DNA from: Lepisosteus oculatus
Taxonomy: Eukaryota > Chordata > Actinopteri > Semionotiformes > Lepisosteidae
Direction of reading: 5' to 3'
Assembly (NCBI RefSeq): GCF_040954835.1
Contig: NC_090698.1
Location: forward strand, 74,382,284-74,446,283
DNA length: 64,000 nt
Under the pieces are notes generated by a model. That model worked only from the letters and a program-made list of their open reading frames with translations. It was not told the DNA's origin and made no database searches. This document shows positions 18,700 to 21,288 of the stretch, piece after piece. Position numbers and translations under genes: made by a program. Position 1 is the first letter of the stretch; each line of letters starts with the position of its first letter.

Positions 18700-21288
18700 A
18701 TGGTAAGGGCTTGTGCTCCAGCTCTGGGCTATAGTTGCTCCCTGGGTAGGGGGAGCTCTGTCTGTATGTTCACTTGGTGATTAATGCTTCACTATTATAA
18801 TAAACAGCAAATATTCCAATTATCCTGACCACTGCTTTAAATCAAATTGCAGCTGTACTGCTGGATGTGAAATGTTCAACAGAAGGAATTAAGCATGTAT
18901 CATGCATTGAGGAAATGCACAGAATTTATGTAGGCTGTGTGTGGCTGAAGGTAAAACCAATGCTATTGTGATCAGAGAATGAATGGGAACCCTGATGCAT
19001 CTCTTCAATGATGTATTTCCCCCCTGCAGAGGGAGTGCATTTCTGTCCACATAGGCCAAGCAGGTGTGCAGATGGGAAATGCATGCTGGGAGCTCTACTG
19101 CCTGGAACATGGAATCACCCCTGATGGGACCATGTGCACTGTGAGCCAGGCTGATCTGGTGGACTCCTCCTTTGGCACCTTCTTCAGCGAGACAGGAGCT
19201 GGGAAGCACGTGCCCAGAGCCGCCTTCATAGACCTGGAGCCAACAGTTGTGGGTAATGTGGGGGGGGTTTGGTTGAACTTGAAGGGATTTTGCAAATCCA
19301 GGAAGAGCTCTCCTGAGAGAGCCCCCTCAGTTGGTTTGCTTTCCTTATAAAAGTTAGGAAGGAATCGGTCTTCTGAGCTCTTGCGTTTGGCTATGACTTT
19401 GAGCTGCCCACAAGGAGTTTCTGACTCCAATTTAAAAACTGGCTGGAGGGGCTGAAGATTACAAATGGGTCGATGCTGATGTCTGAAAGCACTAAAGCTC
19501 TATGAATTGCAGAACAAATGGGATGATGGATTCTCAAAACTCCCTATCCAGAATCCAGTCTCAAATAGCATTTACATCTGATGCCAATTGCTTATCTGTA
19601 AAACTTGACTGTTAAAGTGAGGTCATACAGTAAATACAGGATTTGTTTAAGGAGTTAAATTAATGTCTGCTGAAGGGACTCCATCAGGATATATCTGATT
19701 ACAATTTAAAATCTGTATGGTTGATTAGGCTCTAGTTGAGGCTCAGTAAGCGTTTTCAAAGGTGGGTAACAATGTTCCTTAAAAATACAGATCCACAACG
19801 ATGAGCAAATGGGTTGAAATATTGTCTTTGGGGCTCAATGGTGACCGAGACTCTGACTAATGTGGGACTTGAAAACCCTGAATCGTGAGGAAGGAAAGGT
19901 CCTCCTGCTTGAACGACCTGGGCCCTGGTCCTCTCTTGGCAGATGAGATCCGACTAGGAAAGTACCGCCAGCTGTACCACCCTGAGCAGCTCATCAGTGG
20001 GAAGGAAGATGCTGCCAACAACTACGCCCGAGGACACTACACCATCGGCAAGGAGATCATCGATTCAGTCCTGGACCGCATTCGGAAAATGGCAAGTGCT
20101 CTTTCCTGGGTGAAAGATGAGATGTCACTTGGCTGCCAGCTTCCTATTTAATGCACTTGGTTAACCCAGCAAGTGAGCACCTGGGCTCAGTCTGAGGTGG
20201 ATCCAAGTCATGGTTAAATCTGGGTCTAGATTCTGTGCATGTTATTGTAGTACAATGCTAGTGCCCCTCTTTGAAGAAACCTACTGAAATTCTGTCTTCT
20301 TTCCTAGGCTGACCAGTGCACAGGTCTGCAGGGCTTCCTGGTGTTCCACAGCTTTGGAGGTGGAACTGGCTCAGGATTCACGTCCCTGCTGATGGAGCGC
20401 CTCTCTGTGGATTATGGCAAGAAGTCCAAGCTGGAGTTCTCGGTTTACCCTGCTCCACGGGTCTCCACTGCTGTGGTGGAGCCGTACAACTCCATCCTGA
20501 CCACCCACACCACCCTGGAGCACTCGGACTGCTCCTTCATGGTGGACAACGAGGCCATCTTTGACATCTGCAACCGCAATCTCGATGTGGAGCGTCCATC
20601 TTACACCAACTTGAATAGGCTAATTGCACAGATTGTCTCTTCCATTACTGCTTCTCTGCGCTTTGATGGGGCCTTGAATGTTGACCTCACGGAGTTCCAG
20701 ACCAATTTGGTGCCATATCCCAGAATTCACTTCCCCCTGGTCACATATGCTCCCATCATTTCTGCAGAGAAAGCCTACCATGAGCAGCTGTCTGTGTCGG
20801 AGATCACCAACGCCTGTTTTGATCCTGCCAACCAAATGGTGAAGTGTGATCCCAGACGTGGAAAATACATGGCCTGCTGTCTGCTCTATCGTGGGGATGT
20901 GGTGCCCAAGGATGTGAATGCAGCCATTGCCAGTATTAAAACCAGGCGCTCGATCCAGTTTGTGGACTGGTGCCCTACTGGTTTCAAGGTTGGCATTAAC
21001 TACCAGCCTCCTACTGTGGTGCCTGGAGGAGATCTGGCAAAACTTGCCCGGGCTGTGTGCATGCTGAGCAACACCACTGCCATCGCTGAAGCCTGGAGCC
21101 GCCTGGACCACAAGTTTGACCTGATGTACGCCAAGAGGGCCTTCGTCCACTGGTACGTGGGAGAGGGGATGGAGGAGGGCGAGTTCTCTGAAGCCAGAGA
21201 AGACTTGGCTGCCTTGGAGAAGGACTATGAGGAAGTAGGAGCTGATTCTGCAGAAGGCTTGTGTGAAGAAGATGAGGATGAGTACTAA
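18700..21288 (+). CDS. Alpha-tubulin (451 aa, four coding exons)
   Basis: Encodes an alpha-tubulin, the GTP-binding subunit that pairs with beta-tubulin to build microtubules. Coding exons are 18700-18702 (ATG only), 19030-19252, 19943-20091 and 20308-21288, giving phases 0, 1, 0; the total of 451 residues is the usual length. Visible hallmarks are the MREC start, the nucleotide-binding loop GGGTGSG at residues 142-148, catalytic Glu254 in DLTEFQTNL, and an acidic tail ending EDEDEY with the terminal tyrosine used in the detyrosination cycle. Lysine 40, the lumenal acetylation site, is replaced by serine and the surrounding loop (about 36-47) is divergent. The third intron begins GC instead of GT. 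Residues such as [10 protein letters not shown] and CDPRRGKY differ from the TUBA1 type and recall TUBA8/TUBAL3-like paralogs, but the exact orthology is uncertain. It converges on a paralog 5.2 kb downstream. Confidence 0.95.
20092..20307 (+). other. GC-AG intron 3 of plus-strand tubulin gene
   Basis: Exon 3 ends ATG and is followed by GCAAGT; the acceptor is TTTCCTAG. Using the nearest GT (at 20097) would add bases and break the frame to exon 4. The paralog has GTAAGC at the homologous place, so the T-to-C change at donor position 2 is specific to this gene. The other donor positions match consensus closely, as is typical of functional GC donors. Confidence 0.8.

Follow-up and report, generated by a model that had tools for sequence, protein, structure and literature searches.

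Linked tubulin genes offer the closest described parallels to the locus analyzed here. In Notothenia coriiceps, an alpha-tubulin cluster that includes a tail-to-tail pair was reportedly described by Parker and Detrich in 1998, and its exons, introns and untranslated regions (UTRs) are said to be all similar, indicating recent duplicates. The pair of the present work lies in a window of 64,000 nucleotides of Lepisosteus oculatus DNA (contig NC_090698.1), the whole stretch that was analyzed. It resembles the reported Notothenia pair in its tail-to-tail linkage, but its similarity is confined to parts of exons.

The mammalian gamma-tubulin pair TUBG1/TUBG2 shows mosaic concerted evolution, and its conversion was deduced from sliding windows and Geneconv (PMC2720389). 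As in our pair, linked tubulin paralogues there have some exons homogenized and others diverged. The two cases nevertheless differ: TUBG1 and TUBG2 are gamma-tubulin genes in direct orientation, approximately 45 kb apart, with conversion through introns and raised GC content at third codon positions (GC3), whereas the window pair consists of inverted alpha-tubulin genes 5.2 kb apart, with at most 11 bp of intron converted and no rise in GC3. The beta-tubulin paralogues of Leishmania are likewise said to evolve in concert within one genome (PMC1533823), but these are beta-tubulin genes at three loci of a protist, whereas the window pair consists of inverted, intron-bearing alpha-tubulin genes.

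Concerted evolution of single exons in linked paralogues is already well documented, including for a tubulin pair, and the mechanism is not new; the window pair adds one more clean case to a familiar process, gene conversion. Among the literature matches listed, whose coverage leaves out most subscription journals, none describes this pair or the conversion of alpha-tubulin exons in fish.

Results

The window contains two complete alpha-tubulin genes that face each other (convergent, tail to tail) and have the same four-exon layout. The plus gene (18700-21288, + strand) has exons at 18700-18702, 19030-19252, 19943-20091 and 20308-21288, as determined by spliced translation, and its product has 451 residues. 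The minus gene (29544-26467, - strand), with exons at 29544-29542, 29202-28980, 28177-28029 and 27444-26467, was delimited by spliced translation, phmmer on residues 1 to 125 and tblastn; it yields 450 residues, and neither translation has an internal stop. The coding bases per exon are 3, 223 and 149 in both genes, followed by 981 in the plus gene and 978 in the minus gene. The stop codons and last exons are separated by approximately 5.2 kb, and the two copies of exon 4 form inverted repeats of about 1 kb.

The plus protein matched an alpha-tubulin chain over its full length in phmmer (E = 1.2e-284), and its exon 4, the copy that was scanned, carries the Pfam Tubulin and Tubulin_C domains. 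The pair may resemble a named alpha-tubulin isotype such as TUBAL3. Among solved structures, the best phmmer match for the whole plus protein, as well as for residues 1 to 125 of both genes, was the alpha-tubulin of PDB 9EOK. This structure belongs to work on Xenopus laevis microtubules (PMC11099078), from which we infer that the chain is a Xenopus sequence. No third alpha-tubulin copy or exon 4 remnant was found in the window by tblastn at E 1e-3.

The two genes differ in several other features. Intron 3 of the plus gene (20092-20307) opens with GCAAGT and is a GC-AG intron, whereas the minus gene has GTAAGC at that place. Residue 40, in exon 2 (19030-19252 and 29202-28980, respectively), is S in the plus gene and N in the minus gene, versus K in 9EOK; lysine 40 is the usual luminal acetylation site of alpha-tubulin. 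The observed/expected CpG ratio is 1.09 at the 5' end of the minus gene (28950-29800) versus 0.10 at that of the plus gene (18200-19300), a contrast in base composition which suggests that the two genes might be regulated differently.

An earlier note on this DNA had proposed that the last exons of the two genes were homogenized by gene conversion, and it had predicted a drop in synonymous divergence along the coding sequences. That drop was found. By the Nei-Gojobori method, dS between the plus and minus genes was 2.19 in exons 1 and 2, 0.54 in exon 3 and 0.125 in exon 4 including the tail, and it was 0 over codons 126-205, i.e., the first 80 codons of exon 4; uniformly high synonymous identity across the exons is excluded by these values. 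Protein identity was 54/75 (72%) in exons 1 and 2 and 43/50 (86%) in exon 3, exactly as noted earlier, and it was high in exon 4 as well, although we measured 96.3% (tblastn, 326 residues) rather than 97%. The two copies of exon 4 differ at 35 codons, and one more is absent from the minus gene; 22 of these differences fall within codons 126-433, hereafter the core.

We then scored codon agreement at identical residues that have more than one possible codon. The same codon was used at 276/291 such residues of the core (78/78 in codons 126-205 and 198/213 in codons 206-433), compared with 28/52 in exons 1 and 2 (Fisher p = 5.6e-13 versus the core), 31/41 in exon 3 and only 4/13 in the C-terminal tail from codon 434 onward (p = 1.4e-8 versus the core). 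If each gene picked its codons independently, following the usage seen in the pair, agreement would be approximately 43 to 45%, and the probability that codons 126-205 would be identical given the protein and this usage is about 10^-32.5. When the 97 differing codons were shuffled among all 450, none of 20000 rounds reached the longest identical run, which spans 83 codons. The argument that protein constraint alone is insufficient thus holds, as 276/291 stands against an expected rate of about 43%, and this supports gene conversion. Part of the silent divergence of exon 2 may be compositional, given how rich in CpG the minus gene is at its 5' end. Nevertheless, intron 3 cannot be aligned and the tail is diverged, both away from the CpG-rich stretch, which indicates that the background is far more diverged than the core.

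Change-point segmentation placed the homogenized tract of the plus gene at 20297-21233 (+), a stretch of 937 bp that contains 24 mismatches. Its partner in the minus gene, the inverted arm at 26519-27455 (-), was converted from the plus coordinates via the ungapped alignment and is based on segmentation and blastn; the blastn alignment of 20297-21297 with 27455-26458 shows 95.7% identity over 1001 columns. Both edges are sharp, with silent-site identity inside the tract far above that of the flanking homologous sequence: mismatches amount to 36/49 in the intron upstream and to 17/62 downstream, in the tail and the first bases of the 3' UTR. Inside the tract mismatches are unevenly spread. The sub-tract 20297-20549 (+) has 0/253 mismatches, an island of divergence at 20640-20652 (+; codons 236-240) has 6/13, and the rest has 2 to 4%. 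Several details given earlier were confirmed, namely, the starts of exon 4 at 20308 (plus) and 27444 (minus), the 242 identical bases at 20308-20549, the first mismatch at 20550 (AAC/AAT) and the 11 intron bases common to both copies just upstream, which bring the identical run to 253 bp. The claim that the last exon was homogenized stands for the core but not for the whole exon, since the tract stops at about 21233, and the 18 codons of the tail beyond it (21234-21288, +) show no more codon agreement than exon 2 does.

The upstream edge at 20297 lies 11 bp within intron 3, and the downstream edge at 21233 is internal to the exon, ahead of the C-terminal tail. The two copies of intron 3 are 216 and 584 bp long, and without their last 11 bases they have a best match of 8 bp (E = 1.4), which is at chance level; the 3' UTRs of the two genes gave no alignment. 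The 11 bases next to exon 4 match without a break. The remaining 14 pairings of the six acceptors in both genes have 2 to 4 bases in common, and only 4 of 50000 simulated acceptor pairs matched over 11 bases. As the simulation was built from the same six acceptors, including the two at issue, this figure is conservative. The copied stretch therefore probably took in a few bases of intron 3, to judge from this match, which favors genomic DNA over a cDNA as the template.

Exon 3 (dS 0.54) is more diverged than exon 4 overall, as had been noted, but it is not uniformly so. It contains a partly homogenized patch at 19964-20056 (+; codons 83-113), where the same codon is used at 26/31 residues (p = 9.6e-6 against a rate of 0.45, an optimistic value because the limits were picked after viewing the sequence). 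The flanking codons of exon 3 agree at 1/3 and 4/7, and seven of codons 114-125 differ between the genes. Residues Y87 and S94 of the patch are common to the two window genes alone in the quartet described below.

Change-point models with 4, 5, 6 and 7 segments had nearly equal Bayesian information criterion (BIC) values (441.4, 440.0, 439.6 and 442.7), and an identical run of 80 codons within the core was reached in 478 of 20000 shuffles. These results make two or more conversion events likely, short of proof, and they hint weakly that the first 250 bp or so of exon 4 underwent a recent event of their own.

We compared the two genes with outgroups in a quartet of protein sites made up of plus, minus, PDB 9EOK and TUBA1B, as a substitute for fish orthologues; informative sites were few, and 9EOK is a single relative of unproven orthology to the pair. 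In the core, 5 sites joined plus and minus, and 0 and 0 joined either with 9EOK. The alternative core trees had approximately unbiased (AU) values of 0.025 and 0.061, and they were not rejected by the KH and SH tests (p ~0.07). The exon 3 patch gave 2 sites for the plus-minus pairing versus 0 and 0, with an AU value of 0.013 for the alternative trees and again no rejection by KH and SH (p ~0.07 to 0.08). Over the other 94 residues of exons 1 to 3, 0 sites supported plus-minus versus 1 and 1 for the alternatives, and the three trees were within 0.02 log units of one another; over all 125 residues of these exons, the plus-minus tree was best by 1.15 log units, which is not significant. Taken alone, the quartet trees lend moderate support to a closer kinship of the two cores.

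Stronger support came from a comparison of protein distances, for which the exon 3 patch had been removed beforehand from the N-terminal set. In this N-terminal part, the two genes differ from each other at 28 residues versus a mean of 23 from 9EOK, and in the core they differ at 7 residues versus a mean of 18.5, so that the cores are closer kin relative to the outgroup. The contrast between the two parts was reached in 0 of 20000 permutations and reversed in 3 of 10000 bootstraps. The core is also the more conserved part, the two copies differing from 9EOK at 18 and 19 of its 308 residues but at 17 and 16 of the 75 residues of exons 1 and 2; normalization to 9EOK controls for this greater constraint on exon 4.

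Relatives of the pair were also sought in contig collections. In the viral collection, 1 stretch matched the pattern and none was confirmed. In the genome collection, 24 candidate stretches reduced to 4 loci, all in bacterial metagenome bins: L001 (4830-5774), L002 (2414-3226), L003 (5001-5942) and L004 (3214-3300), with identities of 81, 77, 63 and 79%, respectively, the last over 29 residues. These loci are probably eukaryotic contamination of the bins and were excluded from every count.

Six-frame Pfam scans for neighboring genes took in both strands of 1-9992, 44010-54001 and 54001-63992 but just the plus strand of 31500-41491. An ALKBH8_N match at about 35587-35712 (+) was just above the cut-off (22.6 versus 21 bits, E = 7.8e-5), in a translation that runs across stop codons, and DUF3648 gave one sub-threshold match in the scanned regions. 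An open frame at 39377-40021 (+; 214 residues) resembles, by eye, the end of a LINE reverse transcriptase. Rfam detected a UnaL2 LINE 3' element at 48811-48864 (-), a family named after an eel LINE, whose presence is compatible with DNA of a ray-finned fish. Self-comparison revealed long tandem-repeat arrays at 11891-12891, 16583-17260 and 42838-44010, the first of which repeats a unit of some 60 bp and is free of stops for more than 360 codons in several frames, and shorter arrays at 57439-57685 and 59564-59864. Between the tubulin genes lies a palindromic element of about 143 bp (22432-22574) with 78% identity to its own reverse complement. The segment 22378-22451 matches 5181-5254 at 84% and is probably a dispersed repeat.

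Discussion

The plus and minus genes are old duplicates with strongly diverged first halves. We put at roughly 93% the probability that ectopic (interlocus) gene conversion homogenized the core of their fourth exons. From what is established about such events, one copy of exon 4 would have served as a genomic DNA template in the repair of a double-strand break in its inverted neighbor, and the inverted arrangement of the pair may have played a role. The tract would end where homology ended, at the non-aligning intron 3 on one side and at the diverged C-terminal tail on the other. Conversion was probably repeated: an older event would have affected exon 3, another most of exon 4, and perhaps a later one just the first 250 bp or so of exon 4. 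Selection against conversion of the tail may also have caused the downstream edge, and either selection or a mere lack of homology may have set the limits of the tract.

Gene conversion often raises GC at third codon positions. Raised GC3 is treated as a supporting sign of conversion in PMC2720389. In our pair it was not seen within the tract, where GC3 is 0.76 in codons 126-205 and 0.63 to 0.64 in codons 206-433, versus 0.65 (plus) and 0.92 (minus) in exons 1 and 2. The direction of conversion is not decided by GC3 or CpG content. If 9EOK represents the ancestral state, the plus copy has acquired 3 replacement changes since homogenization and the minus copy 4, and these do not tell the direction either.

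The alternative that comes closest, though we consider it very improbable, is conversion by a cDNA, i.e., reverse-transcribed mRNA of the sister gene, which would favor 3' ends. Such a 3' bias of cDNA-type conversions has been described for yeast, and the tract does sit toward the 3' end of the coding sequence. However, it appears to hold 11 bases of intron 3, it does not continue into the 3' end of exon 3, where 7 of codons 114-125 differ, and it stops ahead of the tail and the 3' UTR, all of which argues against a cDNA template.

Slightly less credible still is exon shuffling, whereby the segment with exon 4 was recently duplicated in inverted orientation and the duplicate took the place of the resident exon. 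It would likewise yield a high-identity tract in inverted orientation, but the edges of the tract coincide with the limits of coding homology, neither the 3' UTR nor the intron beyond 11 bp was carried along, the window holds no residual resident exon 4, and the island of divergence within the tract speaks against a recent replacement. We give as little credence to an artefact of assembly or polishing, in which reads from one exon 4 would have been used to correct the other. The perfect identity of the first 253 bp is what such an artefact would give, but the 35 differing and one absent codons of exon 4, 22 of them in the core, indicate that the copies were resolved separately.

Least probable of all is that protein-level purifying selection and shared codon bias kept the fourth exons alike with no exchange: exon 4 does encode a more conserved part by comparison with 9EOK, but codon usage predicts about 43% agreement where 276/291 is observed, the tail and exons 1 and 2 of the same genes show no comparable codon agreement, the core remains closer after normalization to 9EOK, and the tract takes in 11 intron bases.

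Returning to gene conversion, the absence of lysine 40 from both copies (S and N) and the end of the tract just ahead of the tail led us to a reading in which the isotype ends escape conversion. It is possible, although we hold it to be rather unlikely, that the two isotypes stay distinct at their variable ends, namely, the C-terminal tail and the loop that carries lysine 40 in other alpha-tubulins. The polymerizing body that they share would be renewed again and again by conversion, and selection would remove conversions that cross into the ends.

The mosaic has a practical consequence: trees or dates inferred from the complete coding sequences would place the duplication of this pair much later than the first exons indicate. 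The pair is a clean natural case in which to ask what sets the ends of conversion tracts and, for tubulin isotypes, whether selection has a part in this.
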